A stretch of 64,000 bases of DNA from a virus: positions 17,399 through 81,398 of the IMG/VR virus record IMGVR_UViG_3300020370_000003; one strand, given 5' to 3'. The stretch's first letter is position 1. The number at the start of each line of letters is the position of its first letter. Positions 40,201-63,487 of the stretch are shown here, in pieces. The notes under the pieces are model-generated. The model searched no databases, was not told the DNA's origin, and worked only from the letters and a program-made list of their open reading frames with translations. The position numbers and the translations under genes were made by a program.

Positions 40201-43200
40201 TGTTTGCTCATTAGCAGCAAAATCGAATATAAACTCATTCCTATTCCATTGAGTTTGACCAGAAAGGTAAACATCACCAGAATTATCAGTATTAACTGAA
40301 TGAACGGTTATACCTTCAATACGGTTTTTATTAAATTCATTAGTTGTATGATTCTTAATAATACCATTATATCCAATCTTAACTGAATCTACAGTTTTAA
40401 CACCAGTTGTAGTATTGTCTCTACTAAATGCAACGTTTAAATCTCCAAATATATCGATAGAACTCCTATCTGCCATAGTGATATCTCTACCAGGAGCAAC
40501 ATAACGATAATTCCAAATTATATCACCAGTTCTACTAACTTTACAAACCCAAAAACTATCTTTCTGTGTAGGATCAGACTTAAATCTTAATGAACAAGAA
40601 ATATAACACTCATTAAATTCGTCAAAGACAAGACTACCATCAACTAATGAATATACAGATGTACTATACTCTTTAATAAAGTCTATATTAATTGCACTTG
40701 TAGTTAAAGTTGCTTTACCAAATGCAAGATTAACATCGGTAGTAGATTGATTTAACCCTACTTCCATTAAGAAGTATAATTCTGTAGCTCCTGAAGTAGT
40801 CGTTATGACCTTCATATCTACAATCTTTTCAGATTTACTAGTAGATACAAGCTTTCTCTTAATAGCAAAATTACCAGTACTATCAATAGATGCTAAGAAT
40901 GCATCATATGGGTTACTGGAATTTGTATTAGTATAACCACCAATAATGAAACGAGTATCACTCCATTTTTGAATTGAAGTTACATAGTCAGCACGAGTAG
41001 CACCAGAGATACCAGCATATCCTTTTTGGAACTGTAATCCAGCACTCAATCCATTTTCTGTCTGAGTATACTTAGCAAGTATAACATCTGGATTATATGC
41101 ATTAAGTAGATTAGAATTTGGCTTATTATTACCAACCACCCAAACATCAAGACCATCTACATAAAGTTTTTGAAACTCTGTATAGTATTGTCCATCAGTA
41201 CTCTCTAGAGTATTCTCCCACTCTTTAACACCTGTAGCAGATAATTTAGCAACAAAACCTACTGAATTTCCAACAGCATCTTTTGTTTTACCACAAATAA
41301 AGATCTCTTTATTATCACTAACGTAAGTATCATTAATTTTAACATAATTCTGATTTCCAATTTTAGAAAGATAATAATCCGCTTTCTTAAAGACCTGTGG
41401 ATGAGATAATATAACACGAGGATTAGATGTATATCCAGAACCAGAATTTAAAATATTAACTTGATCAATAGCACCAACAGTTGATACAACTGCTTCTAAT
41501 TTTCCAGAAGTACCATCACCATCAATTGTAATAGTTGGTGGAATATCTGTATTGTATCCAGAACCTCTTTGGTCAATAACAATCTCTTCTATACCTTTAT
41601 ATTGACGAACTACAAACGTTTTGTTTGTATTCTGCATTATAGGAGTATAATCTATATAAACAACATCACCAGCAATTAGATTATGAGGATCTGCTGTCTG
41701 TAAGACACCATAATTAGCACCACTAATATTCTCAAAATCATATGCAGCAACTGCTTCACCCTTGATTTTTGAAATACGAGCAGATACACCAGCTCCATCA
41801 GTATCGGTATTATCAAATATTAATCTATCATCTACCTGATAATTCTTACCTGTGTTCTCAACAGTAAATCCAGTAACAGAAGCATCTTCAAATTTAGTTG
41901 TTGTTTCAACTTCAATATCAACTTTAGAGTCAAATTTAACTTTAGGGAAGTAATCAAATAACTGTAAAGGTGACTCCTCAAACATTTGATCGGGGTCAGC
42001 AGTCTCTTCTGGACCTATAATTCCATCTCTATTTTCATCCTCTACTTCAAACAACAAGATCTCACCATCTTCAGTTGTTAAAGCAGCAGTAGAAGCATTA
42101 GGAACCCTTTCAACATCAATATCAACATTCTCATAAGGGTCTCTATAACGTACAACTCCAGTTGGTATATTCTGCTGAATTGCATTTGCACTAAGGTTCC
42201 ATTCATCAACAACAGAGTTGAAACTTGGTCCTATAACATATGGGAAAAGTGGACTACCTGCATCAGTAGCATCAATAGTAACGAAATAAGCATAAGCACC
42301 ATTAGGGAAGTCAGGAGTCTTACAAAAACGACCATTATACTGGTCTAAGTCACCTAATCCAAAACTATACTCATAGTCTTCTACAAAATTACCAGCAGGT
42401 TCTTCTGTTAATAATGGACCAGCAGTTCTATTTGGAGTTGGATTAATAGTATCATCATAAATTAATTCATCCTTTAATTTGTAAGAAGTTCTAAGTCTTA
42501 CGGTAGCAGAACTTTGGTCAGTAGGATCAACGTATCCATAAGGACCGTAAATTGGATTACCATCAAATGCCCAACCGATAATTGGAGAGTGAGATAACTG
42601 CTCTTCTTGTTCTAGAATATTTCCTGTGCCAATTTCTTCATAAAGGTTATCACCAAGGATATACCTCATCTTTTGAGGGTTTGAAAGGTGAGCATACTCA
42701 CCACCATACTCATTATTGTAACCAGTAAATACAGAACCTTTAGCAGTATCAAACTGTGAAGTTGCTTGAAGGTTATAATTCCATTGGAATACATTTGCAG
42801 TAAAAGTAGCATTTTGACCAACGGAAGTCAAATTAATAATAGTACTACCTTGGATGTAGTTAATACCTTTGTTAACAATCTCAATATTGGTAACCCTACC
42901 AGCATTTTCACCGTCTGTGTCAATAGTTGCTCTTGCAATTGCACCAAATCCAACACCTTGAACAGATACTTCAGGTGCAGTAGTATATCCAGATCCAGCA
43001 GAAATGATAGCAATAGATATAATTCTACCATCATTAACAATTGCTTGTGCAACAGCACCTTTACCAGAACTTAGTGTTACTGTTGGACTTGAAGTGTATT
43101 GAACACCACCATTAGTAATACCAATAGACTGAATAGGTCCACGAACAGATGCAGTACCAGCAGCACCATTTCCACCACCACCAACAATAGTAATAAGTGG

Positions 43201-53111: not shown

Positions 53112-55465
53112 GGTAGATATTCTCCTGTATTAAATGGATTTCCATACTCCGCAATTGCATCACTCCATACATTAGCGGATTTAGTTAATGAATTGTACAT
53201 AGGTAGTGTTCCTACAGCATTCCATGTTTTACATCCAGATCCAAGAAGCGGTGACATAGTATATGTTGTAACAGTATTTCCGCTACTACTATTGACATTA
53301 CCTGTATTAGGAGGACTACATCCTATATGTCCACACCCACTATTAACAGGTGTACATGTTAATGTGACATTAATGTCTACTTTCTTGGTTGCATCAGCTC
53401 TATATTGACGCATATGGTATTTAGTATAGGTAGAAGCATGCGGTAAACCGCTAAAACGACCTTGTACAGTAGTAACCATGCGTTCACGGTTAACAGCATA
53501 CGCAGGAACTGCCACTTGTGTTATATCTTCTATGTCTTGTAACCGCATTTCTTTGTTACGATCCTTTTCATGTACCAATACATCACCAAACCAAGCTGGA
53601 TATACGTCACCTACATGCAATAATGAGTAATTAACTGCGAATCTTGCGTCAAATTCTTCCATAGTTGCACTCTTATAGTGATATTGAGGCACTTTTTGCA
53701 CTCTATTTAAGTCTGGATCTTGTTTTAAGTCGATTCTTGGTGCAAAATCAACATCAGTCTGCTGTCTAGGATGTCTTAACCAACAATCTGCTACTTTACT
53801 CAACATTTCTGCGTCCATTCCACCAGGTATTGAGTTAAGAATGTCCTGAAAATCACTAACATCCGTATCTCTATACGCTGCATTCTCAATAATAGTAGTT
53901 TCTTCCTTAAAAACGTTCTGTACATAAATTTTTGGTAATTGTCCACCAACATGAGAATATCCTGAACCGCCACGACTTACTTTAACTCCTGTAAGTACCC
54001 CATTAGTCCATGCTGCTTTGACTTCTGCTTGTGTTCCATTAGCAGCCTGCGGTGGAGTTACTATAAGTTCTGGTATTCTTCCATATTCATTCCATCCAGA
54101 TCCACCATCTACAAGTTGCACACCAGTTAAAATACCATTAGTAATAGTTACATCAACAATTGGGTTTCTAAGTACATTATATGTGTCTGGAGCGTTCTGA
54201 TCTACGTCTGCAGGGACATATTGGACGGATTTATCCAAAAATTCGTAAAATCCGACTAAAATTGCCCGATCTGGGACTCTAAAACCCGCTTTTACCGTAA
54301 TAACATGGTTTCTATTGCTAGTATACTGCGTTTCTTTAGCAAAATCGCTCCCATTTCCATCAATATAAGCAATATGGTAAGGAAAATTGTCTAAATCGGT
54401 GTGAAATACTCTCTTAACTGTATGTCCGTTAATAGTGTCTCCAGCACGTAAAACATCGAACCCTTCTTGCCCTTCCGTAGCTTGGTACGCTTGTACTGTC
54501 TTTACTCTTAAATTTAAATTTAGTACGGAGGTACTATTATTAGGATGCGTATGTGTATACTCTAAAGTAAACGTTTGACCAGCACTATAGTTTACTCCTG
54601 GTGATAAGATCTCTGAAATAGTCCACGAAGTACCTGAAAATGTTGTTGTTGCCCCACTATCGTCATATACTGCCTTAATTCTTGCCTTTACACTGAAATT
54701 TGTGGACGCTCCCGAATTTAGGGTAAAGATTTTAAAGTCATCAAAGAACTCATCCCCTGCCATATAAGGATTATCACCAGAAATGTACTCTGTACCGACT
54801 ACAGTGTTCTCGTTCCATACGTCAGTCCATGTGGTTCCGTCGTCAGAGACCTCAAAATCAGAAACTCCATTAGGTAACGTGGTTGAAAGCGAGTTATAAC
54901 TGAATACAACCTTCTTACTAAGACTTCCTATTGAAAATAGAGTCGGATGAGGGCAGTCGGGGTCGGCACACCCACATTCAGCAGCACCAGGTACATCGTA
55001 TCTTATTGTGGTTGTCGCAGGGGTACATGTAAACGCCCCACAAGGGTAACAAGTGTCTGTAGATGAACTTGCACCTGTCTGAGTATTTGTAACGGTCTCA
55101 GTCTCTATATGATAGCAAGGAGTACCTACTACACCTGCATCGTTTGAAGTGTCATACAGATAGGAGAACCATGTATCTGAGAAACCGTGGTCATATGATA
55201 GACCATCTGGATAATAATCGAAATATAATGTCTCACCACATGCTGACTTAGTATACTTACCACAATTCGCTACACTACTACCACTTAATGCGATAGATGG
55301 GTACATTATCGTACTACCATCCCTTCCAGGGATATTATACGCTCCTCCCCTTATCGCATTACTTGGATATTCCTTAAATTCTACTAATGTAACTCCTTCT
55401 CCTGTTCCAGGCTCAAACCTTTCACAGGAAGTAGAACTACAATCATTCTGTGGGCTGCACCCCAT
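53108..55465 (-). CDS. Cysteine-rich virion structural protein (785 aa)
   Basis: The protein begins MGCSPQNDCSSTSCERFEPG. Cys-rich clusters continue over the first ~200 residues (CGKYTKSACGE, CYPCGAFTC, CGCADPDCPH) and return at the C-terminus (CTPVNSGCGHIGCSPPNTGN, SGCKTW). The GCSPxN sequence occurs at both ends. The middle contains two Gly-rich repeats of the giant-protein type (VDGGSGWNEYGRIPELIVTP; VSRGGSGYSHVGGQLPKIYV). The last third (VGDVYPAWFGDVLVHEKDRN; RFSGLPHASTYTKYHMRQY) is globular. It lies just before the PAAR gene where T4 has the gp5 hub/spike, but I see no lysozyme domain. A baseplate hub or spike-associated structural role is inferred from context. Its start overlaps the 232-aa gene by 23 bases. 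Confidence 0.65.
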   Translation of the reverse strand: MGCSPQNDCSSTSCERFEPGTGEGVTLVEFKEYPSNAIRGGAYNIPGRDGSTIMYPSIALSGSSVANCGKYTKSACGETLYFDYYPDGLSYDHGFSDTWFSYLYDTSNDAGVVGTPCYHIETETVTNTQTGASSSTDTCYPCGAFTCTPATTTIRYDVPGAAECGCADPDCPHPTLFSIGSLSKKVVFSYNSLSTTLPNGVSDFEVSDDGTTWTDVWNENTVVGTEYISGDNPYMAGDEFFDDFKIFTLNSGASTNFSVKARIKAVYDDSGATTTFSGTSWTISEILSPGVNYSAGQTFTLEYTHTHPNNSTSVLNLNLRVKTVQAYQATEGQEGFDVLRAGDTINGHTVKRVFHTDLDNFPYHIAYIDGNGSDFAKETQYTSNRNHVITVKAGFRVPDRAILVGFYEFLDKSVQYVPADVDQNAPDTYNVLRNPIVDVTITNGILTGVQLVDGGSGWNEYGRIPELIVTPPQAANGTQAEVKAAWTNGVLTGVKVSRGGSGYSHVGGQLPKIYVQNVFKEETTIIENAAYRDTDVSDFQDILNSIPGGMDAEMLSKVADCWLRHPRQQTDVDFAPRIDLKQDPDLNRVQKVPQYHYKSATMEEFDARFAVNYSLLHVGDVYPAWFGDVLVHEKDRNKEMRLQDIEDITQVAVPAYAVNRERMVTTVQGRFSGLPHASTYTKYHMRQYRADATKKVDINVTLTCTPVNSGCGHIGCSPPNTGNVNSSSGNTVTTYTMSPLLGSGCKTWNAVGTLPMYNSLTKSANVWSDAIAEYGNPFNTGEYLP

Positions 55466-56141
55466 TGGTCTTACCTTCTAGTTTATCAACTCTCTTGTTA
55501 AGTGCTCCTATAAGGAAACTTAAACCTTGAGCTTGTTGTTCCATACTAATCACCCTTGAATGTATTACACCATCAAGTCTTGTCTCAAATGACTCCATTT
55601 TAGTATGAAGAGCATCAAAGTTCTCTTGTAAAGTCATAAACTTAGATCTGCCTTCAGGACTAATCATAAACTGTTCTAGTATCCTTTCAGGTCTTTCCAT
55701 TTCACCAAGATACTTCTCCATACCCTCTAGACGTTTATGAAGTACCTCAATACACTGATTAAGTGCAACGTGTGCTTCTTGGTTATCCTCAAAACAGTAC
55801 TTAATCCATTCCCAATCTATTTCATCACCATCTGCAGAATTAGGAATAGGTACGTCTACTCTAGCATCTCCTTTCATAAGGTCATCTAAAAAATCATCAA
55901 TTTTATCTCTCTTATCTAACTCCATAGCAGTACCTATACCACCCTTCTGTATCTTATCAATATCTGGAGGTAGGTCTTCATCTGTTAGTTGTCTTTCATA
56001 AGGAACTGCCATCTCCTTCTTTGCCAATTCCATTGCTGCTAGATATTCCTCATTATCTTGTTTATCAAGTTCTGTAGGATTATCAGCATCAAATGGTGAA
56101 GGGGCATCAGTAGCTACTTTAGGTAGTTGTTCTTCAGTCAT
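55443..56141 (-). CDS. Acidic coiled-coil protein (232 aa)
   Basis: The first ~110 residues are acidic and probably disordered (DAPSPFDADNPTELDKQDNE; GDARVDVPIPNSADGDEIDW). The second half is helical with strong heptad character (HVALNQCIEVLHKRLEGMEK; FDALHTKMESFETRLDGVIH; LIGALNKRVDKLEGK). The start codon overlaps the stop of the 52-aa upstream gene by eight bases and the end overlaps the Cys-rich gene by 23 bases, so it belongs to the spike operon. I do not recognise the family. A structural adaptor or assembly chaperone for the spike is a plausible inference. Confidence 0.65.
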   Translation of the reverse strand: MTEEQLPKVATDAPSPFDADNPTELDKQDNEEYLAAMELAKKEMAVPYERQLTDEDLPPDIDKIQKGGIGTAMELDKRDKIDDFLDDLMKGDARVDVPIPNSADGDEIDWEWIKYCFEDNQEAHVALNQCIEVLHKRLEGMEKYLGEMERPERILEQFMISPEGRSKFMTLQENFDALHTKMESFETRLDGVIHSRVISMEQQAQGLSFLIGALNKRVDKLEGKTNGVQPTE

Positions 56142-56292
56142 CTTTCAATAATTTAAGAGTGTTTTCATCTATACTATAATTTAGCACTTCACCAACCTCC
56201 CAATTTAGTTCGGAGTATACCTCCTCTGGAACGTAGATGATAGGATCTCCATACTCATCCTCTTCTATATTTAATGTAAATCGTTTGGACAT
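56134..56292 (-). CDS. Small AbrB-like-fold protein candidate (52 aa)
   Basis: The sequence starts MSKRFTLNIEEDEYGDPIIY and continues VPEEVYSELNWEVGEVLNYS. The pattern of a short beta strand, an acidic loop, a (I/V)xxPEE helix and WxxGDxL-type strand resembles a single SpoVT-AbrB-type swapped-hairpin subunit, as seen in small phage and antitoxin proteins. Such proteins bind DNA as dimers. The stop overlaps the next gene start by eight bases and the start lies three bases from the previous gene. The fold assignment is tentative; the gene itself is well supported by spacing and codon pattern. Confidence 0.6.
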   Translation of the reverse strand: MSKRFTLNIEEDEYGDPIIYVPEEVYSELNWEVGEVLNYSIDENTLKLLKDD

Positions 56293-56740: not shown

Positions 56741-56971
56741 TTATGCTGCTAAATTGTCAAGAACTGACTGGTCAATCTCTGTCACGTTTGTAACATTTTT
56801 CAACCACTTATTTATGTGGCGAGATGTAGTAACTGACCAAAACTTAGAGGTTCTAACATAACCCTCAGAGGGTAAATACGCTGCAACTGGTGTTCTATAA
56901 CTGAAGAAGATTTGTGTTCCGTCGTTGATAGTAACTTCGTTCTGATTTGCTGCGATTGGTGTTAGTTTCAT
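56741..56971 (-). CDS. DUF8033-like small protein (76 aa)
   Basis: The sequence begins MKLTPIAANQNEVTINDGTQ and has the pattern IFFSYRTPVAAYLP, YVRTSKFWSVTTSRHINKWL. I associate this with the DUF8033 family, a small all-beta/helix protein of unknown function conserved in T4-like cyanophages and other phages. An AAGGA Shine-Dalgarno sequence lies about ten bases upstream of the ATG. It is transcribed alone: a TATAAT promoter (57003-57008) with the repeated dyad element lies just upstream and a strong terminator follows. Confidence 0.75.
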   Translation of the reverse strand: MKLTPIAANQNEVTINDGTQIFFSYRTPVAAYLPSEGYVRTSKFWSVTTSRHINKWLKNVTNVTEIDQSVLDNLAA

Positions 56972-57002: not shown

Positions 57003-57060
57003 ATTATAACCCCTCAGAGGTAACTAACAACAACCTCTGTGCCACTTTGTCTACTGTCAC
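57003..57060 (-). promoter_or_regulatory. Early promoter with dyad element, copy A
   Basis: The -10 TATAAT is at 57003-57008 and a TTGTTA -35 at 57025-57030 (16-bp spacer). The dyad element at 57039-57060 reads GTGACAG-N8-GTGGCAC on the minus strand. The gap from -10 to dyad is 30 bp. It precedes the DUF8033-like gene. The same arrangement recurs five more times in the early region. Confidence 0.7.
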
Positions 57061-57121
57061 ACCTTATGTGTTACTTAAGGGGGCAAGATCTTACATGGGT
57101 TTGTGTTACCTCTCAAGGTAA

Positions 57122-57150
57122 ATTGTAGCATAATTTGTGATACTTTGCAA
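57122..57150 (-). promoter_or_regulatory. Sigma70-like promoter with extended -10
   Basis: On the minus strand TTGCAA (57145-57150), a 17-bp spacer ending TGC, and TACAAT (57122-57127) form a good vegetative promoter with an extended -10 (TGnTACAAT). It would transcribe across promoter A into the DUF8033-like gene, giving a leader of about 140 bases. No dyad element is found at the usual distance. Confidence 0.5.
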
Positions 57151-57184
57151 GAAATGTGTGATTTCTACGATATACTTGACAGTC

Positions 57185-57303
57185 GGTAATTAACGTGCTA
57201 AGACTACATTTTCTCCACAGGTTTTCCACAGGTAATTAACACTCAACCTAGTTTATTTAACCATTTAATTGTTTTCCACAAAAACACGATTAACTGTGGA
57301 AAA
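57185..57303. other. DnaA-box cluster, candidate origin or DnaA-binding locus
   Basis: Three exact copies of TTTTCCACA lie at 57222-57230 (+), 57272-57280 (+) and 57295-57303 (-). A fourth, TTCTCCACA, lies at 57211-57219 (8 of 9). TTTTCCACA is the DnaA-box consensus reported for cyanobacteria and differs by one base from the E. coli box TTATCCACA. A 10-bp direct repeat GGTAATTAAC occurs at 57185-57194 and 57231-57240. The surrounding sequence is A/T-rich and gene-free. Together these suggest a replication origin or a site that recruits host DnaA. Function is inferred. Confidence 0.5.
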
Positions 57304-57306
57304 GTA

Positions 57307-57447
57307 TCATTTAGTGACCCATAATCTGTTCTCTCTGATATACTCCCACTGTATAATGATTAACTCCTTAAGTGTTATAAACACATAGTTAATCTGTTCT
57401 CCGTATGTAACATTGTAGTGAGGGTAATCCTTTTTGTTAATTGTCAT
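57307..57447 (-). CDS. Small hypothetical protein (46 aa)
   Basis: The ORF starts MTINKKDYPHYNVTYGEQIN and ends in an aromatic/basic segment (IQWEYIRENRLWVTK). Its ATG overlaps the TGA of the preceding gene (ATGA junction), which supports translation. It ends four bases before the DnaA-box cluster. I do not recognise a family. Confidence 0.6.
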   Translation of the reverse strand: MTINKKDYPHYNVTYGEQINYVFITLKELIIIQWEYIRENRLWVTK

Positions 57448-57722
57448 TGTACGTCCTCATATCTTCCCTCTTGTGATTTATAACTAGACGGAGTAATTAC
57501 ATCCTCTTCCGTGTTAGTTTGTAATTCTAATTCATTCCAGTAAATGTTACTAACTAACAGGTTAACTTCGTTATATGGATAACAACTATGTTTTGCAATT
57601 TCAGGGTCTTTTTGCCATCTATGGAGTGTAAGAGTTATATACATTTTGTCAATGAAATTAACCTCTCCTATTTCATCTCTCCATTTGACAATTTGTCCTT
57701 TCTTAAACTCATTTAGTTGCAT
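57444..57722 (-). CDS. Small hypothetical protein with SH3-like N-terminus (92 aa)
   Basis: I chose the ATG at 57722 because a strong Shine-Dalgarno sequence (AAGGAGG) lies seven bases upstream; the frame is open further upstream but without such a site. The protein begins MQLNEFKKGQIVKWRDEIGE and continues VNFIDKMYITLTLHRW, a small beta-barrel-like pattern (G-x-I-V-x-W ... G-x-V ... YIT) that recurs in short cyanophage proteins. The C-terminal third is acidic. Function unknown. It sits in an early operon between the 62-aa and 46-aa genes. Confidence 0.7.
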   Translation of the reverse strand: MQLNEFKKGQIVKWRDEIGEVNFIDKMYITLTLHRWQKDPEIAKHSCYPYNEVNLLVSNIYWNELELQTNTEEDVITPSSYKSQEGRYEDVQ

Positions 57723-57732
57723 GTAATCCTCC

Positions 57733-57921
57733 TTAGTGATTATCAATAATATCCCAAAACCATCCGATTGATTTGATATAATCAAAGCATGAAAAACGTG
57801 GGAGATCTTTATATCTATCACCCCTAGAGTTTCTAACACCGTCCATGTACAATTCTAGGTCACTAATTGTTTCAAACGTACCATGTAATTTGTCGTCTGA
57901 ATCATATACTTTATACTGCAT
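57733..57921 (-). CDS. Small hypothetical protein (62 aa)
   Basis: The ORF starts MQYKVYDSDDKLHGTFETIS and continues DLELYMDGVRNSRGDRY. The N-terminus looks like a small beta hairpin followed by a helix. It begins two bases after the previous gene stop and ends ten bases before the next Shine-Dalgarno site. Family unknown. Confidence 0.65.
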   Translation of the reverse strand: MQYKVYDSDDKLHGTFETISDLELYMDGVRNSRGDRYKDLPRFSCFDYIKSIGWFWDIIDNH

Positions 57922-57923
57922 GA

Positions 57924-58196
57924 TTAGATGTGTATGTAATAACGAAGGTCACCAGATATCTCACCATGAATGTTATTTTCTGGGTCATCTTTTAACCTAC
58001 AAAATCTTCTTACTGGCACAACTGCGATACAATCTTCATCCCAACATAGGGCATCTTGTTGTAACATATCGTCAGAAAATGATTGTAATTCTGTTAACAA
58101 ATCAAGGTAAGTCATAGTGTCGTTTGTGTTAAATTGGTGGACATAACTATCCCATCCTGTTGTTAATGTATTCCAAGGGATTAGGATAGGGTGCAT
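57924..58196 (-). CDS. Small hypothetical protein (90 aa)
   Basis: The protein starts MHPILIPWNTLTTGWDSYVH and includes YLDLLTELQSFSDDMLQQDA and AVVPVRRFCRLKDDPENN. Its ATG overlaps the TAA of the upstream gene (TAATG), so it is translationally coupled. No family is recognised. It is an early-region gene in a compact five-gene operon. Confidence 0.65.
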   Translation of the reverse strand: MHPILIPWNTLTTGWDSYVHQFNTNDTMTYLDLLTELQSFSDDMLQQDALCWDEDCIAVVPVRRFCRLKDDPENNIHGEISGDLRYYIHI

Positions 58197-58516
58197 TACT
58201 TATAGTGTACCATATTGTCGAGGTTGTTAACATTTTCACTCGGCAAATCTGTGCCACTCTTAGTAACATACTCCTTAATAATAGCGTATGCTTGATTAAA
58301 AATAGGAGTGAAATCTAATTCCCCTCGCAAACAATGAGCGAGTTCATCTATCTGCTCTGATGTTAAACAATGGTCAGGATGTCTAATATCACATAGAGGG
58401 ATAGTATGCTCTACTAATTCATTTAAATTAATAGTGATTTCGTAGTCACGATATACTGGCATGGGTGGATTAGGGTGTCGTTGTTGATAATCAGGAGTGA
58501 TGATTACTTCGGGCAT
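58196..58516 (-). CDS. Small hypothetical protein (106 aa)
   Basis: I place the start at the ATG at 58516 (MPEVIITPDYQQRHPNPPMP) because the more upstream ATG at 58558 lies inside a terminator hairpin. The body contains YEITINLNELVEHTIPLCDI and LTSEQIDELAHCLRGELDF, a beta strand then two helices. It overlaps the next gene by one base (TAATG). No family is recognised. No promoter is obvious between it and the terminator, so it may depend on read-through. Confidence 0.65.
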   Translation of the reverse strand: MPEVIITPDYQQRHPNPPMPVYRDYEITINLNELVEHTIPLCDIRHPDHCLTSEQIDELAHCLRGELDFTPIFNQAYAIIKEYVTKSGTDLPSENVNNLDNMVHYK

Positions 58517-58531
58517 AATGTTATTTAGAGG

Positions 58532-58563
58532 CAAAAAAATCGGGGCGTGGATAACCACAACCC
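58532..58563 (-). terminator. Rho-independent terminator after the 42-aa gene
   Basis: On the minus strand AGGGTTGTGG / CCACGCCCC form a stem with one mismatch and a TTAT loop, followed by GATTTTTTT. It lies 27 bases after the stop codon of the small gene at 58590-58718 and should attenuate or end transcription before the 106-aa gene. Confidence 0.65.
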
Positions 58564-58589
58564 TAACATATTGTTGATAGATCTATACA

Positions 58590-58718
58590 TTATTGGCATA
58601 AATCTTCAAATCTTGCTTTAGCAATAGACTCACATTGTTCTTCATCAAATTGAGGATATTCTTCTAATACTTCCTCAAATAGTGTTTCTAATATGCTCTC
58701 GTGATGTAATACTGACAT
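58590..58718 (-). CDS. Small acidic helical protein (42 aa)
   Basis: The ORF starts MSVLHHESILETLFEEVLEE and ends ARFEDLCQ. It is acidic and probably all helical. A short protein ending in a similar RFxDLCQ sequence is common in cyanophage early regions as far as I recall, function unknown. Its ATG lies two bases after the previous stop and a terminator follows. Confidence 0.65.
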   Translation of the reverse strand: MSVLHHESILETLFEEVLEEYPQFDEEQCESIAKARFEDLCQ

Positions 58719-58720
58719 AA

Positions 58721-58897
58721 TTAAATTGCCTCAAATTGGTTTACAATAACATCCTCTAATTCTGATATTCTATTATCATCAATTAGGGAAAGATAGTCTA
58801 CTAAAATCTCATTTAAGAGATTCTCTCGTTTATACTCAGGATAGTCAGATAGTAGACAATCTATAACATCTGACTTGAGATTTAATGCTCTTGACAT
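58721..58897 (-). CDS. Small acidic hypothetical protein (58 aa)
   Basis: The start at 58897 (MSRALNLKSDVIDCLLSDYP) is chosen because it follows the preceding stop by five bases and has TAGGAG about eleven bases upstream; a longer frame would overlap the upstream gene by 50 bases. The protein is acidic and helical (NLLNEILVDYLSLIDDN). Family unknown. Confidence 0.6.
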   Translation of the reverse strand: MSRALNLKSDVIDCLLSDYPEYKRENLLNEILVDYLSLIDDNRISELEDVIVNQFEAI

Positions 58898-58902
58898 AAT
58901 AA

Positions 58903-59130
58903 TTAAACTCCTACTAATGATACTGAATTTGCATAATCTTGTTTTAGATGTAAACAAGTCTTATGAATTTGGAAGAGTAAAGACATATCAACTCCCTCCC
59001 AATCTGTCCACTCTGATACATAATCCCAAGCGTCAAAATCGCCTGTATTATCAACATTTAGTGGGCATGATTTAAACTCTAAATCTTCATCAATCCAGAA
59101 GATTCTTCCAAAAGCGTCACTACTATACAT
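58903..59130 (-). CDS. Small acidic hypothetical protein (75 aa)
   Basis: The ATG at 59130 has GGAGG nine bases upstream and is preferred over an ATG 27 bases earlier. The protein starts MYSSDAFGRIFWIDEDLEFK and contains DAWDYVSEWTDWEGVDMSLL, Asp- and Trp-rich, so negatively charged with exposed aromatic residues. It overlaps the preceding 86-aa gene by eight bases. Family unknown. Confidence 0.65.
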   Translation of the reverse strand: MYSSDAFGRIFWIDEDLEFKSCPLNVDNTGDFDAWDYVSEWTDWEGVDMSLLFQIHKTCLHLKQDYANSVSLVGV

Positions 59131-59383
59131 TGTAAGTAACCTCCGTTGATGATACAAATTGATGGCAATTTGAGTGGTCTACGTTGTTATCAACGTACTT
59201 AAATGTATGAATCTTGTCATACACTTCGTTGACATACTGTTGAGTAGTCATAATTCTTTTGGACATAGTTTTGCCCATAAATGTTAACACCCTTAGAACT
59301 TTGTCGTGATGTTTAACATTATCCCATGTTTTTACAGGATAGTAGTCACTAACCATGTGACCAGATTTTGAAGAAAGTTGCAT
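59123..59383 (-). CDS. Small hypothetical protein (86 aa)
   Basis: The protein starts MQLSSKSGHMVSDYYPVKTW and has a basic, helical centre (KVLRVLTFMGKTMSKRIMTT, then QQYVNEVYDKIHTF). It is followed with an eight-base overlap by the 75-aa gene. No family is recognised. Confidence 0.6.
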   Translation of the reverse strand: MQLSSKSGHMVSDYYPVKTWDNVKHHDKVLRVLTFMGKTMSKRIMTTQQYVNEVYDKIHTFKYVDNNVDHSNCHQFVSSTEVTYNV

Positions 59384-59416
59384 AATAAACTCCGTAATGT
59401 GTGTAATTAAATGTTA

Positions 59417-59728
59417 TTAAACTTGGGACATTGCCAAGTCTTTGAGATAATCTTCAGCACAATCTTGTGCGTCAAAAATGTTATCAAAAGAACCGAGATT
59501 GACTGATGTACCTATAAGGCAACCTTTAGAGTCATCATAGTTCATAGACTCAACCTTGAAAAGGTCTCCACCGTAGTGATAGATTGAGAGATTAGGGTCT
59601 AGAGTATTCTCACGTCTGTAAGAATCAAATGAAGAGGTTCTCACACCCTGAGACCACTCGAAACCTAGATAGTCGTCACATAGATTGACGCACTGTTGAA
59701 AAAGAGTTTTAGAATTTGAATTTGACAT
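59417..59728 (-). CDS. Small hypothetical protein (103 aa)
   Basis: The protein starts MSNSNSKTLFQQCVNLCDDY and includes SIYHYGGDLFKVESMNYDD and a helical C-terminus (FDAQDCAEDYLKDLAMSQ). It is the first gene after early promoter B. Its 5' leader holds a perfect 9-bp hairpin (59759-59767 with 59782-59790). Family unknown. Confidence 0.65.
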   Translation of the reverse strand: MSNSNSKTLFQQCVNLCDDYLGFEWSQGVRTSSFDSYRRENTLDPNLSIYHYGGDLFKVESMNYDDSKGCLIGTSVNLGSFDNIFDAQDCAEDYLKDLAMSQV

Positions 59729-59758
59729 AATTTTGAAATTGAATGTTTGTTACCTTTG

Positions 59759-59790
59759 ATAATCAAGTGATTTTGCTCTTCCTTGATTAT
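59759..59790 (-). promoter_or_regulatory. Leader hairpin downstream of promoter B
   Basis: ATAATCAAG and CTTGATTAT form a perfect 9-bp inverted repeat around a 14-base loop within the predicted 5' leader of the 103-aa gene, directly downstream of the -10 of promoter B. There is no T-run, so it is not a terminator. It could stabilise the mRNA or be a protein-binding site. Confidence 0.45.
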
Positions 59791-59796
59791 GTACTT

Positions 59797-59855
59797 AATA
59801 TAGCATAGATTTGACCAAAAATCAAGCGACTTTGTGCCACTTTGTATGCTGTCAC
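59797..59855 (-). promoter_or_regulatory. Early promoter with dyad element, copy B
   Basis: The -10 is TATATT (59797-59802) with an extended TG (TGCTATATT), and the -35 is TTGATT with a 17-bp spacer. The dyad at 59834-59855 reads GTGACAG-N8-GTGGCAC on the minus strand, 31 bp upstream of the -10. It precedes the 103-aa gene operon. Confidence 0.7.
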
Positions 59856-59860
59856 TAGGT

Positions 59861-60070
59861 TTATCTGATGTAACCGTTTTCGGTTACCATGAAAGCATCT
59901 AGTCTAGGGATATCCAAATCAGCGTCATCAAAATCTATTTTAGCACACCCATAGACTCCCCACTCGCTCAACTCTTGAACGAATTCTGCCCAGTTAGCAC
60001 ATACACATGCTACATTCTGAAAGTTTTCAACCTCTAGAATTCTGTTGATGATGGTTTGAGTTTTTGACAT
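59861..60070 (-). CDS. Small hypothetical protein (69 aa)
   Basis: The protein starts MSKTQTIINRILEVENFQNV and includes CVCANWAEFVQELSEWGVYG and an Asp-rich stretch (KIDFDDADLDIPRL). It is the only gene between promoter C and promoter B, so it is probably monocistronic or followed by read-through. Its stop lies five bases before dyad copy B. Family unknown. Confidence 0.65.
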   Translation of the reverse strand: MSKTQTIINRILEVENFQNVACVCANWAEFVQELSEWGVYGCAKIDFDDADLDIPRLDAFMVTENGYIR

Positions 60071-60095
60071 AATGCTCTTTGAATCTTATATACTC

Positions 60096-60154
60096 ATTAT
60101 ACACACGCAACCACCCCAAATGGGAAAAATATGTGCCAGTTTATCCACTGGCAC
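60096..60154 (-). promoter_or_regulatory. Early promoter with perfect dyad element, copy C
   Basis: The -10 is TATAAT (60096-60101). The dyad at 60133-60154 is perfect: GTGCCAG-N8-CTGGCAC, 31 bp upstream of the -10. A CCCATT rather than a TTGACA-like hexamer sits at the -35 position, so activation by a protein at the dyad would make sense. It precedes the 69-aa gene. Confidence 0.75.
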
Positions 60155-60170
60155 AAGATCTGTTGACTGT

Positions 60171-60419
60171 TTATTTAACTACATTTAGTCTAGGAAATTG
60201 TTGGGTTACGTTATCAAGTAACTCTTCAAATAACTCAGGGTCATAATCATTAATGTTCTCTTTTAACTCGTTTGATGTAAACTGTTCGTATGTAAATACG
60301 AGGTCATCATACACATATTGTACGAGTGTTTTAGTGTCCATACCATCAACAATTATCTCTGCGAACTGTTCAATTAGTTCCTTCTTTTGTTGTGGTGTGA
60401 ATGATACTTTGTTAGTCAT
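60171..60419 (-). CDS. Small acidic protein, paralogue of the 61116-61373 gene (82 aa)
   Basis: The protein begins MTNKVSFTPQQKKELIEQFA and includes TLVQYVYDDLVFTYEQFTSN and ELFEELLDNVTQQF. Its plan (TPQQxxELI...DxMxxxxLxxxVxxxL...EL...E.xxELxDNVT) matches the 85-aa product of 61116-61373, so the two arose by duplication. Acidic and helical; function unknown. It is the last gene of the operon driven by promoter D, and overlaps the preceding gene by one base. Confidence 0.65.
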   Translation of the reverse strand: MTNKVSFTPQQKKELIEQFAEIIVDGMDTKTLVQYVYDDLVFTYEQFTSNELKENINDYDPELFEELLDNVTQQFPRLNVVK

Positions 60420-60727
60420 TAGTCGTGAAATCCTGTAATGAATGGTTCGGGGTTAATGTTAGTTAAGGCATCTATCTCTGCCTCGTGAATATCAACTGCT
60501 GTCTCTAACTTCTCAAAGATGTTATCAACATCATTATTAAAGTTCTCATCATCAGTATCATCACTGTTCTGAATGTACCCTTCTAAAACATATAATATGG
60601 TGCTAATTTGGTTGACAGTTAGTGATACTGGCAACTCACATTCTTCAATGCCACGTTGTAAGATAGTCTTAGCATCTAACTCACTATTAGTGGCATTAGG
60701 ATTTGCTGATTGTTGATACTTAGTCAT
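60419..60727 (-). CDS. Small acidic hypothetical protein (102 aa)
   Basis: The ATG at 60727 (MTKYQQSANPNATNSELDAK) is preferred to one 12 bases upstream because GGAG lies seven bases before it and the start overlaps the zinc-ribbon gene stop (ATGA). The protein is acidic and helical (TVNQISTILYVLEGYIQNSD; NDVDNIFEKLETAVDIHEA). Family unknown. Confidence 0.65.
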   Translation of the reverse strand: MTKYQQSANPNATNSELDAKTILQRGIEECELPVSLTVNQISTILYVLEGYIQNSDDTDDENFNNDVDNIFEKLETAVDIHEAEIDALTNINPEPFITGFHD

Positions 60728-60888
60728 GCTAATCTCCATGAGGTTTTTGTTACTGAAGACCTACAACATTGGCAGGTTAATGCACTCCAACTGAAGTGAA
60801 ATACGAGTGCTGTTTGTGAACAACAAGGGCATTTTATCCACTTGCCGTTATTACCAGCACGAGTGTATCTTGTGACGTTATTTGTCAT
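60724..60888 (-). CDS. Small zinc-ribbon protein (54 aa)
   Basis: The protein starts MTNNVTRYTRAGNNGKWIKC and has a C-P-C-C motif followed ~18 residues later by C-Q-C-C (KCPCCSQTALVFHFSWSALT, then CQCCRSS). Two CxxC knuckles in this spacing indicate a zinc ribbon. Similar short CxxC...FHFSWSALxC proteins occur in cyanophage early regions as far as I recall. It could bind DNA, RNA or host RNA polymerase; which is not determined. It sits two bases after the preceding stop and overlaps the next start by four bases. Confidence 0.75.
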   Translation of the reverse strand: MTNNVTRYTRAGNNGKWIKCPCCSQTALVFHFSWSALTCQCCRSSVTKTSWRLA

Positions 60889-61116
60889 TTATGCCTCCCA
60901 ATAAAGTGCATTAAACTCGGCAATGTTTAGGTGTTCATCATCATGTACACGACCTAATTGCTCATCATCACCTTCACAATCAAAGATGAATTCCTCACAG
61001 AAGTATTCAACTGAGCAACCTAATTTCTCTGCTGCTCTTAAGAATTCTCCTATATGTTCATCACTTAAATCTAACTCATCAATGCAAAATGCAATGTCAC
61101 GTTCTAACTGAGTCAT
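60889..61116 (-). CDS. Small acidic hypothetical protein (75 aa)
   Basis: The protein starts MTQLERDIAFCIDELDLSDE and continues FLRAAEKLGCSVEYFCEEFI, with an acidic C-terminus ending FNALYWEA. Its strong negative charge and helical pattern could suit a DNA mimic or an inhibitor of a host protein, but nothing proves it. It overlaps the preceding gene by one base. Family unknown. Confidence 0.65.
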   Translation of the reverse strand: MTQLERDIAFCIDELDLSDEHIGEFLRAAEKLGCSVEYFCEEFIFDCEGDDEQLGRVHDDEHLNIAEFNALYWEA

Positions 61117-61373
61117 CAGAATTTACCTCCATTGTTGTTAATGTCAAGTACAGTTTCGTTAGTTACGTTATCAATTAACTCATCTAATGTTTCCTCATCC
61201 CATGTATATTTAATCTCATCACATAACTCTTCCCTAGATTCAATTTCTCTTAAATCTTGTGTTAGAGTTTGTGTTACAAATGAAATCAAATCATCCATTT
61301 CCATACTATCAACTTGTAACTGAACTGTCTGTTTAATTAGTTCATCCCACTGAGGTGTAGTTAGTTCTCTCAT
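61116..61373 (-). CDS. Small acidic protein, paralogue of the 60171-60419 gene (85 aa)
   Basis: The protein starts MRELTTPQWDELIKQTVQLQ and ends ELIDNVTNETVLDINNNGGK plus F. The ending NETVLDxNNxGGK(F/Y) is, to my recollection, a recurrent cyanophage early-protein signature. It is clearly related to the 82-aa product encoded at 60171-60419 along its whole length. Acidic, helical and of unknown function. It lies in the promoter D operon. Confidence 0.68.
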   Translation of the reverse strand: MRELTTPQWDELIKQTVQLQVDSMEMDDLISFVTQTLTQDLREIESREELCDEIKYTWDEETLDELIDNVTNETVLDINNNGGKF

Positions 61374-61375
61374 TG

Positions 61376-61507
61376 TTAGTTACCCCTCTTAATTTGTTTT
61401 TGTAATTTGTTAAATTGTTTAGATTCTTTAGGTGTTAATCCTGAAAAATAGTTGAGAAGATTGCCTTCGTAACTATCAAATAGTGCATCTAATTGTTTGT
61501 TCTTCAT
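61376..61507 (-). CDS. Small hypothetical protein (43 aa)
   Basis: The ORF starts MKNKQLDALFDSYEGNLLNY and has a basic, helical C-terminus (ESKQFNKLQKQIKRGN). It fits exactly between its neighbours with two-base gaps on both sides, which supports it as a gene although it is short. Family unknown. Confidence 0.65.
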   Translation of the reverse strand: MKNKQLDALFDSYEGNLLNYFSGLTPKESKQFNKLQKQIKRGN

Positions 61508-61509
61508 TG

Positions 61510-61761
61510 TTATACACCCCACTCAAATCTTGGGTTTTCAAGTATAATATCTCTCACTCTTTCTCTGTCTAAACTATCACCATCACCCCAAGAATAATGA
61601 ACATATTCTAAGTCACCCTTCTCAATCCTTTTCTTATATGTAAAGAAGGCATCATAAATGTGACCCTTAGTTAATCCTTGAATAGGGTATAAATCACTGT
61701 TTGGTGCATAGAAATCCCAAACATAATTTACAAACTTGTTTAATTCTTTGATAGTTGGCAT
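61510..61761 (-). CDS. Small hypothetical protein (83 aa)
   Basis: The protein starts MPTIKELNKFVNYVWDFYAP and includes GLTKGHIYDAFFTYKKRIEK and WGDGDSLDRERVRDIILEN. An AAGGAGG Shine-Dalgarno sequence lies upstream within the end of the 39-aa gene. Its ATG overlaps that gene's stop by one base. Family unknown. Confidence 0.7.
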   Translation of the reverse strand: MPTIKELNKFVNYVWDFYAPNSDLYPIQGLTKGHIYDAFFTYKKRIEKGDLEYVHYSWGDGDSLDRERVRDIILENPRFEWGV

Positions 61762-61880
61762 TACTTTTTACCCTCCTTAGTTGTAGATTTGATTGAAAGA
61801 TTAGATAAGAAGTAATAACGAATTGTTGGAGTTGGATTTACCAACTGTTCATACACTTCTTTTGAAAGACTTGTGTTCAT
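61761..61880 (-). CDS. Small hypothetical protein (39 aa)
   Basis: The ORF starts MNTSLSKEVYEQLVNPTPTI and ends in a Lys-rich tail (KSTTKEGKK). It is the first ORF downstream of promoter D. Its stop overlaps the next ATG (TAATG) and its 3' end carries the Shine-Dalgarno sequence of that gene, so it could act as a leader peptide as well as a gene. Confidence 0.55.
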   Translation of the reverse strand: MNTSLSKEVYEQLVNPTPTIRYYFLSNLSIKSTTKEGKK

Positions 61881-61905
61881 AGGTTGAATTCGTTTGAACA
61901 TTCTT

Positions 61906-61962
61906 ATTATAAGGGATATTCAGGGTGAATGGGAAAATAGTGGACAGTTTGAGATCTGTCAC
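61906..61962 (-). promoter_or_regulatory. Early promoter with dyad element, copy D
   Basis: The -10 is TATAAT (61906-61911). The dyad at 61941-61962 reads GTGACAG-N8-CTGTCCA on the minus strand, 29 bp upstream of the -10, with CCCATT in the -35 position as in copies C and E. It drives the eight-gene operon 61880-60171. Confidence 0.7.
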
Positions 61963-62156
61963 GCCTTAATTGATACCATTATATCAGGTGCTAAGGTAAG
62001 ATATACTAAAGGTGGAAATGTTGGTTCAATATCAATAACCTCTAGTGAATTAGCAGGATAATATCTACCATTAGAATCATCATAAAAGGTGACTTCAGTG
62101 TTACTTTGTTCATCATTTAACTTGCTTAAATGTTCTGCTAATTCTTTATATGTCAT
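61959..62156 (-). CDS. Small acidic hypothetical protein (65 aa)
   Basis: The protein starts MTYKELAEHLSKLNDEQSNT and continues EVTFYDDSNGRYYPANSLEV. The pattern KELxxxLxxLxxxQxxxxVTxYDxxxxxYYPAxSLEV is one I recall from short cyanophage early proteins, function unknown. It overlaps the preceding gene by four bases, and its stop lies inside dyad copy D. Confidence 0.68.
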   Translation of the reverse strand: MTYKELAEHLSKLNDEQSNTEVTFYDDSNGRYYPANSLEVIDIEPTFPPLVYLTLAPDIMVSIKA

Positions 62157-62389
62157 ACAATGTCCTCCTTAAGTATAAACCAATCTTGACGAAATACTAT
62201 CTCATTATCAACTTCTTCCCCTAACTTGTTAAATGATTTGTTTAAACAAGGAACACCAAGTTTCCCATCTGGGTATAAACTATCGAGCATAATCTTGAAC
62301 CATTGGTTATTAGCATCATGCTCAAATTGTTCTAAATCAGGAAAGAAAGATTGACTCCAATTAGTCTCATTGTATGTTAAGTTAGTCAT
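62153..62389 (-). CDS. Small acidic hypothetical protein (78 aa)
   Basis: The protein starts MTNLTYNETNWSQSFFPDLE and includes NQWFKIMLDSLYPDGKLGVP. It is separated from the upstream gene by one base and overlaps the downstream gene by four bases. Family unknown. Confidence 0.65.
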   Translation of the reverse strand: MTNLTYNETNWSQSFFPDLEQFEHDANNQWFKIMLDSLYPDGKLGVPCLNKSFNKLGEEVDNEIVFRQDWFILKEDIV

Positions 62390-62390
62390 G

Positions 62391-62621
62391 TTAATCCTCC
62401 GTTGGTGTGATGTACTTTAGTGCCTTATCATCAGTTGTTTCTAACAATTTACCTACCTTATATTCAAATCCATCACATCTTTCAACCTCCTCATAATGTT
62501 GGCAATGTTCAAAATCAGATGCAATTCTTTTTGCTTCAGTTTTATTATTTGCACCAACTGTTACTGAATAATATACAATTTTCTTTGCTTCAAATGTGTA
62601 AGCATTTAATAAATCAGACAT
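62391..62621 (-). CDS. Small hypothetical protein (76 aa)
   Basis: The protein starts MSDLLNAYTFEAKKIVYYSV and includes TVGANNKTEAKRIASDFEHC, a beta strand then helix pattern like short phage proteins with a YYxVTVxAxNxxEA core. It is the first gene of the 62621-61959 operon, yet a terminator lies just upstream and no dyad promoter is visible; its promoter is unclear. Family unknown. Confidence 0.65.
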   Translation of the reverse strand: MSDLLNAYTFEAKKIVYYSVTVGANNKTEAKRIASDFEHCQHYEEVERCDGFEYKVGKLLETTDDKALKYITPTED

Positions 62622-62644
62622 TGGAATTTACCTCATAATGTGAA

Positions 62645-62668
62645 TAAAAAAGGGGGAATTCCACCCCC
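62645..62668 (-). terminator. Rho-independent terminator
   Basis: On the minus strand GGGGG-TGGAATT-CCCCC followed by TTTTTT forms a G/C stem and T-run. It follows the short 33-aa ORF and ends the transcript coming from promoter F. Confidence 0.8.
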
Positions 62669-62675
62669 TAAGTAT

Positions 62676-62777
62676 TTAACTGTTTGCAACAAAGTCATCA
62701 ATAATTTGTACAACTTCTGCTGCTGTTTGTGCATCTTCAAGTAGATTGAATAGTGCAACTTCAGGATTAAATGCCAT
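62676..62777 (-). CDS. Very small hypothetical protein (33 aa)
   Basis: A 33-codon ORF starts MAFNPEVALFNLLEDAQTAA and ends just before a terminator. The same frame stays open for about 20 more codons upstream (…KYDLKLLFDVPFFTTI) but contains no ATG, GTG or TTG that I can find, so the gene may be a shortened remnant or use another start. It is followed by a terminator, which supports it as the last translated unit of the transcript. Confidence 0.45.
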   Translation of the reverse strand: MAFNPEVALFNLLEDAQTAAEVVQIIDDFVANS

Positions 62778-62840
62778 GATTGTAGTAAAGAAAGGAACAT
62801 CAAATAGTAGTTTTAAGTCATACTTAGGACTAAGGATTGA

Positions 62841-63167
62841 TTACCTTAAGTATAGGTAACCACCTGCCCAATCTGCTCTTGCGAAACACTTTTCACGTTG
62901 ATTAATGATTCTTAAATCATATCTAACGTGCTTTGCTGGTGACTTCCAAGATGCTGGTTTGTAAACTTCGCCAGTGTTCTTATCAATGAAAGCATGAACA
63001 CCTCCATCAACTTGAATAATTTTGATGTACTTCTTACCTACTTTAGTTTCAAACTTTACAGGACTATTTGAATCAGGGTAACGTGAATTGTAGTTTGCTT
63101 CAAGAGCATCCACCAAATCCATTGCCCACATTTCAACTCTTGTTTGTAATTGGTTTGAGACTGTCAT
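62841..63167 (-). CDS. Conserved small phage protein (108 aa)
   Basis: I place the start at the ATG at 63167 (MTVSNQLQTRVEMWAMDLVD) because upstream ATGs in the same frame (63206, 63236) lie at or before the -10 of promoter F and would be outside the transcript. The protein contains KKYIKIIQVDGGVHAFIDKN, TGEVYKPASWKSPAKHVRYD and a C-terminal CFARADWAGGYLYLR. I recall short cyanophage proteins with the same DKxTGEVYKxASWxxPAK and GGYLY pattern, function unknown. Confidence 0.72.
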   Translation of the reverse strand: MTVSNQLQTRVEMWAMDLVDALEANYNSRYPDSNSPVKFETKVGKKYIKIIQVDGGVHAFIDKNTGEVYKPASWKSPAKHVRYDLRIINQREKCFARADWAGGYLYLR

Positions 63168-63194
63168 AAAGGTGTCTTTGTTTGGTACTCTGTT

Positions 63195-63251
63195 ATTATA
63201 GGTCATTTTAGAGGCAGTGGGTAGAATAGTGGTCACTTTGATTACTGTCCT
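63195..63251 (-). promoter_or_regulatory. Early promoter with dyad element, copy F
   Basis: The -10 is TATAAT (63195-63200). The dyad-like element at 63230-63251 reads AGGACAG-N8-GTGACCA on the minus strand, 29 bp upstream. It is the most degenerate copy but keeps the spacing. It overlaps the end of the 53-aa gene and precedes the 108-aa gene. Confidence 0.6.
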
Positions 63252-63403
63252 AGTGTGTAGGAACCTAACATAGTATTACCATATCTTACTTCAGCATATC
63301 CATACTCTACAGATAGGTCTAAGCATAAACCCCAACAATCATCTAGATTAACAAATGATGAATTCTCATAGGGTGCGGATGGACAGTGAACAGAATATCT
63401 CAT
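63242..63403 (-). CDS. Small hypothetical protein (53 aa)
   Basis: The ORF starts MRYSVHCPSAPYENSSFVNL and continues DDCWGLCLDLSVEYGYAEVR. It has three Cys and a compact beta-like pattern; no family is recognised. It lies between promoter E (27 bases upstream of the ATG) and promoter F, whose dyad overlaps its 3' end. Confidence 0.65.
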   Translation of the reverse strand: MRYSVHCPSAPYENSSFVNLDDCWGLCLDLSVEYGYAEVRYGNTMLGSYTLGQ

Positions 63404-63429
63404 AGTTTTAAAATTCGTTTGATACTATT

Positions 63430-63487
63430 ATTATACACACAGAACCACCCCAAATGGGAAAATAGTGTGCAGTTTGAGATCTGGCAC
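63430..63487 (-). promoter_or_regulatory. Early promoter with dyad element, copy E
   Basis: The -10 is TATAAT (63430-63435). The dyad at 63466-63487 reads GTGCCAG-N8-CTGCACA, 30 bp upstream. The sequence between dyad and -10 (CCCATTTGGGGTGGTT) is identical to that in copy C. It precedes the 53-aa gene and lies directly after the helicase gene stop. Confidence 0.72.

Follow-up and report, generated by a model that had tools for sequence, protein, structure and literature searches.

A dyad element at a fixed distance upstream of -10 boxes in small-gene clusters of T4-like cyanophages

Six dyads in a run of small minus-strand genes

The window analysed here is a stretch of 64,000 nucleotides, bases 17399-81398 of an IMG/VR record of 81,398 bp. 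T4-like cyanophages match its part from 56.5 to 64 kb, P-SSM7 being the nearest, and the dyad region consists of consecutive small minus-strand ORFs. Comparable small-gene clusters lie around the helicase in P-SSM7, S-SSM4, Syn9, P-TIM40 and S-SSM7.

A sequence-only reading had placed six elements in this region, 29-31 bp upstream of TATAAT (in one case TATATT). All six were found at those coordinates, with gaps of 30, 31, 31, 29, 29 and 30 bp for copies A to F, respectively. Their reading direction is that of the minus strand, which puts each -10 at lower coordinates than its dyad. The composite scores given with each copy combine dyad, spacing and -10, and were computed with matrices from other phages.

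Dyad A (57039..57060; GTGACAGTAGACAAAGTGGCAC; composite score 35.6) is followed by TATAAT at 57003..57008 and an ATG at 56971, 31 nt downstream. For dyad B (59834..59855; GTGACAGCATACAAAGTGGCAC; score 30.6) the -10 is TATATT at 59797..59802 and the ATG, 68 nt further on, lies at 59728. Dyad C (60133..60154; GTGCCAGTGGATAAACTGGCAC; score 35.6) precedes TATAAT at 60096..60101 and an ATG at 60070, 25 nt downstream; it had been described as a perfect palindrome, which holds for its 7-bp arms but not for the 8-bp centre, and it scored as terminator-like too. Dyad D (61941..61962; GTGACAGATCTCAAACTGTCCA; score 26.6) is weakly terminator-like, and its -10, TATAAT, lies at 61906..61911; the likely start of the gene behind it is the ATG at 61880, not the listed one at 61901. 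Dyad E (63230..63251; AGGACAGTAATCAAAGTGACCA; score 20.6) has TATAAT at 63195..63200 with a DUF7717 gene downstream. The listed ORF start of this gene, 63206, lies upstream of the -10, and the likely start is the ATG at 63167, 27 nt downstream of it. Dyad F (63466..63487; GTGCCAGATCTCAAACTGCACA; score 18.5) is followed by TATAAT at 63430..63435 and an ATG at 63403, 26 nt downstream. The form proposed was GTGnCAG-N8-CTGnCAC; copies A, B and C agree exactly with GTGNCAS-N8-STGNCAC, and the other three are degenerate.

Copies C, D and F have spacer sequence in common (C and F are identical at 25 of about 30 positions, and a 41-nt repeat is 88% identical), a likeness that probably goes back to duplication; A, B and E are not part of it. 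The six copies consequently do not represent six independent events.

The dyad alone does not exceed chance in the window. Allowing three mismatches, 22 matches were found against 16.4 +/- 3.7 in shuffled sequence, and 8 of 100 shuffles reached 22; the claim therefore needed testing with the spacing and with outside data. The significance rests on dyad, spacing and -10 together. A matrix scan had been suggested along with the six positions, and when run with the other-phage matrices it gave 18.5-35.6 for all six copies, compared to a mean maximum of 14.6 and a highest value of 21.4 in 60 shuffles. At a score of at least 17, a cut-off set after the scores were seen, 0.17 matches occurred per shuffle. 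It should be noted that this test is not fully independent, as the consensus that first picked out the sites in other phages had itself been suggested by these copies. Independent support comes from the dyads of other phages, picked by the dyad alone, that have a -10 at 29-31 bp. One further dyad-like match outside the window has no proper -10, and is probably due to chance.

The composite element in T4-like cyanophages

The element was found in nearly all T4-like cyanophages examined, among them Syn9, P-TIM40, P-SSM2, P-SSM4, P-SSM7, S-SSM4, S-SSM5, S-SSM7, S-PM2 and the freshwater phage S-CRM01; few copies are present in S-SM2, P-HM2 and S-RSM4. In ten cyanomyovirus records, five of them partial, a TATAAT-like box follows at 28-32 bp for 86 dyads, a set selected on spacing; the distance is 30 bp in 54 of these. 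To avoid the selection we took 120 strong dyads from nine records by dyad score alone. A TAnnnT box lies at 29, 30 and 31 bp in 19, 63 and 28 cases, against about 5 elsewhere, and the distances near 20 and 40 bp show no further peak. Counted per genome, dyads with a -10 at 29-31 bp number 11 in P-SSM7 (0.28 expected), 11 in S-SSM4 (0.33), 13 in P-TIM40 (0.66) and 14 in S-SSM7 (0.70), the expected counts being derived from other spacings.

Alignment of the cyanophage sites gives the consensus tGTG(A/C)CA(G/C)TT-N4-AA(G/C)TG(G/T)CACa, i.e. tGTGnCAsTT-N4-AAsTGnCACa, with the half-sites equally conserved on both sides. Across the ten records the conserved dyad bases carry about 1-2 bits each and the spacer almost no information. 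The ATG mostly lies 21-31 nt past the -10. The element was expected at syntenic promoters of other phages, and orthologous promoters of other cyanophages do have it: in S-SSM4 and S-SSM7 the gene C orthologues retain both dyad and spacing, and the orthologue of gene E in P-TIM40 has the dyad with TATAAT at 30 bp. Judged by this recurrence in related cyanophages, the dyad with its fixed spacing appears to be a real control site. An A-rich leader, roughly AAGTATAnnnAACAAA, is also conserved in the 86 promoters, downstream of the -10 and directly before the ATG.

Among the phages tested the element is restricted to T4-like cyanophages. In T4, KVP40, Ma-LMM01, P-SSP7, PSS2 and S-CBWM1 the dyad is absent or at chance level, and the SAR11 phage HTVC008M has no dyad with a -10 at 29-31 bp. 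As HTVC008M is filed in Kyanoviridae, the same family as the cyanomyoviruses, the element seems to track cyanobacterial hosts and not the family. When the genome collection was scanned for dyad plus -10, the matches listed were chance-like and scattered across bacteria.

A 2016 study by Doron et al. in the ISME J reportedly described a novel regulatory element controlling the early genes of Syn9, with comparable findings for P-TIM40, and reportedly found it conserved across T4-like cyanophages. Both Syn9 and P-TIM40 have the present dyad 30 bp before the -10 in small-gene clusters. The dyad is very probably the same element, a match made by phage and position and not by motif sequence, and the copies in the window are probably further examples of it. 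The six copies had been assigned to an as yet undescribed regulator; the reader protein is indeed left without a candidate by the searches below, but the element itself was probably reported in 2016.

Promoter architecture and the protein reading the dyad

In the 86 cyanophage promoters the -35 hexamer matches at 2.87 of 6 positions on average, compared to 2.48 +/- 0.10 in shuffled sequence, and 64 of the 86 have three matches or fewer. This agrees with the observation from the window that most of the promoters lack a good -35. The -35 is still slightly above the shuffled level, and some of the promoters may therefore work without an activator. Taken together, a good -10, a poor -35 and an upstream site at fixed distance are the features of activator-dependent sigma-70 promoters. 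The data support a single conserved promoter class whose dyad is centred near -53, as had been proposed. Placement on one face of the helix had been suggested as well; the case for it is weaker than stated, as there is one rigid distance of 30 +/- 1 bp and no second peak appears one turn away. A single rigid distance of this kind fits direct contact with the polymerase.

We suggest that the dyad is probably a two-fold site for a dimeric activator at cyanophage promoters with a weak -35. The dimer would be held at one position, about 53 bp before the start site. By established promoter logic, a two-fold site at constant distance combined with a good -10 and a poor -35 points to direct contact with the polymerase. 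A host RNA polymerase of the sigma-70 type could thereby use promoters with a good -10 and usually a weak -35, and each copy would drive a single small minus-strand gene or operon. We infer binding of a protein, activation rather than repression, and early expression from the sequence features; that the genes are early is suggested by their position and the literature, and they may form one regulon. A position near -53 is not the standard one of a class I or class II activator, which counts against this reading. An activator site would explain how the promoters function with a weak -35 and how they can accommodate a terminator in the spacer.

The dyad promoters resemble the MotA-dependent middle promoters of T4, where an upstream element likewise replaces the -35 beside a sigma-70 -10. 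The MotA box is asymmetric and lies near -30, whereas the cyanophage dyad is two-fold symmetric. T4-like cyanophages, whose hosts are Prochlorococcus and Synechococcus, do without the T4 factors alt, modA/B, motA and asiA, and a review from 2010 (PMC2984593) regarded early and middle transcription control in them as unclear. Earlier cyanophage annotation looked for sigma-70, late, Pho and NtcA promoters (PMC3037559).

The sequence-only reading had drawn an analogy with CRP-family activators and NtcA, which we do not retain. Like their sites, the dyad is a two-fold site upstream of a -10, and its half-site can read TGTGA. Unlike them, it is centred near -53, and its half-sites are spaced by 15 bp (TGTGA-N14-TCACA for N=A) instead of following TGTGA-N6-TCACA or GTA-N8-TAC. 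Further, the CRP-type HTH (PF13545) is absent from 14 cyanophage records and from the window's own partial record. With no such domain in these phage records, and no promoters of this build above the control level in 300 picocyanobacterial-type genomes, the analogy is unsupported.

Other searches for a phage protein gave no clear binder. No phage protein exceeded the cut-off for HTH_3, a phylogenetic profile of genes common to the motif-bearing phages and missing in HTVC008M contained no clear DNA-binding protein, and a Pfam and PHROGs scan of a subset of the shared proteins revealed no universal DNA-binding candidate. An AbrB-like protein, phrog_661, was considered and dropped as it is not universal: it occurs in Syn9, P-SSM7, P-TIM40 and S-SSM4, and not in S-SSM7, S-SM2, S-CRM01 or HTVC008M. 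In the window its ORF lies at 56134-56292 on the minus strand and encodes 52 aa with a weak MazE/AbrB-like match below the cut-off (E 0.14).

It is possible, though not the likelier case, that the site belongs to a host regulator, be it NtcA, a different CRP-family protein or something else, and that the phages borrow it. This concerns the identity of the binder and is compatible with an activator. Early promoters must work before phage proteins exist, and a picocyanobacterial-type genome does have proteins with the CRP-type HTH (PF13545). Against it, the composite element gave 4 matches and the control 4 in 300 picocyanobacterial-type genomes, the dyad alone gave 100 against 176 in the control (151 genomes, totals summed by hand), and the geometry is unlike that of the CRP and NtcA boxes. 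Possible binders are a phage factor, either virion-borne or made at once, and a host regulator with sites of its own that look different or are looser. We tentatively speculate that immediate-early transcription might depend on a virion-borne phage activator of an unrecognised type that reads the dyad, in which case host -35 recognition would be bypassed from the start of infection. The consensus, the spacing rule and the distribution among phages make the search for the reader testable with a short DNA probe.

As a separate observation, P-SSM7 (segment positions 1610-2158) and its relatives have a gene near gp32 annotated as cAMP phosphodiesterase, the annotation being taken as given.

Alternative readings and look-alike sequences

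The dyad could instead be a shut-off site, at which a repressor of phage or host origin closes the promoters after the early phase. A two-fold site at fixed spacing would be expected equally of a repressor that contacts the polymerase. This seems unlikely, as the dyad spans -64 to -43, beyond the core promoter, keeps a single distance throughout and is paired with a weak -35.

A DNA site has further to be distinguished from an RNA hairpin. Mirror positions 4/19 of the dyad match in 39 cases compared to 35.2 +/- 4.1 expected, and positions 7/16 in 35 compared to 37.6 +/- 4.1; these variable pairs show no covariation, which argues against a hairpin. TTTT follows within 12 nt of the dyad in 8%. 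The spacers behave differently from the dyad: significant folds occur in 19 of 86, compared to 5 of 86 for either of two control stretches. At least five spacers form stems with a T-run (P-SSM7 at 40105, P-SSM2 at 53916 and 68754, Syn19 at 41801 and S-SSM4 at 16968). In relatives, complete intrinsic terminators fit inside the spacer between dyad and -10, with its length of 28-32 bp unchanged.

These data bear on the reading of the dyad as the stem-loop terminating the upstream gene, fused with the promoter that follows. In the account of them given in PMC4503421, the promoter early stem-loops (PeSLs) of T4-like phages are such cassettes, a compact terminator hairpin with an early promoter (Arbiol 2010; Comeau 2014). 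Copies C and D do score as terminator-like, the upstream stop codon often coincides with the beginning of the dyad, and some of the spacers resemble a PeSL in holding a hairpin beside the promoter. We nevertheless consider a PeSL-type origin of the dyad very improbable. When compensatory changes and a T-run are looked for, the dyad behaves as neither a PeSL nor an intrinsic terminator, C and D being the only terminator-like copies; the dyad itself is not a stem-loop, most spacers have no significant hairpin, and the terminators of the relatives sit in the spacer. That the six copies merely reflect local promoter duplication, with the dyad under no selection, is scarcely credible: C, D and F do share spacer sequence, but A, B and E keep dyad and distance with unrelated spacers, and across phages the conserved information lies in the dyad and hardly at all in the spacer.

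Isolated matches in host-type genomes were also considered as the same element and set aside, since in context they look unrelated, comprising a Nostocales site, the ends of a repeated or mobile segment in a few Synechococcus-type genomes and scattered coding sites. In Nostocales-type genomes an orthologous near-palindrome, GTGACACTTTCTTAACTGACAC, lies within a few hundred bases of a pentapeptide-repeat gene and has no Rfam match. In Synechococcus-type genomes, sequences like TGTGCCACTAATCAAACTGACACA flank a two-gene segment of 1.27 kb (3476 and 4748; 5000 and 6272), which is perhaps mobile; one of its genes looks PIN-like by eye.
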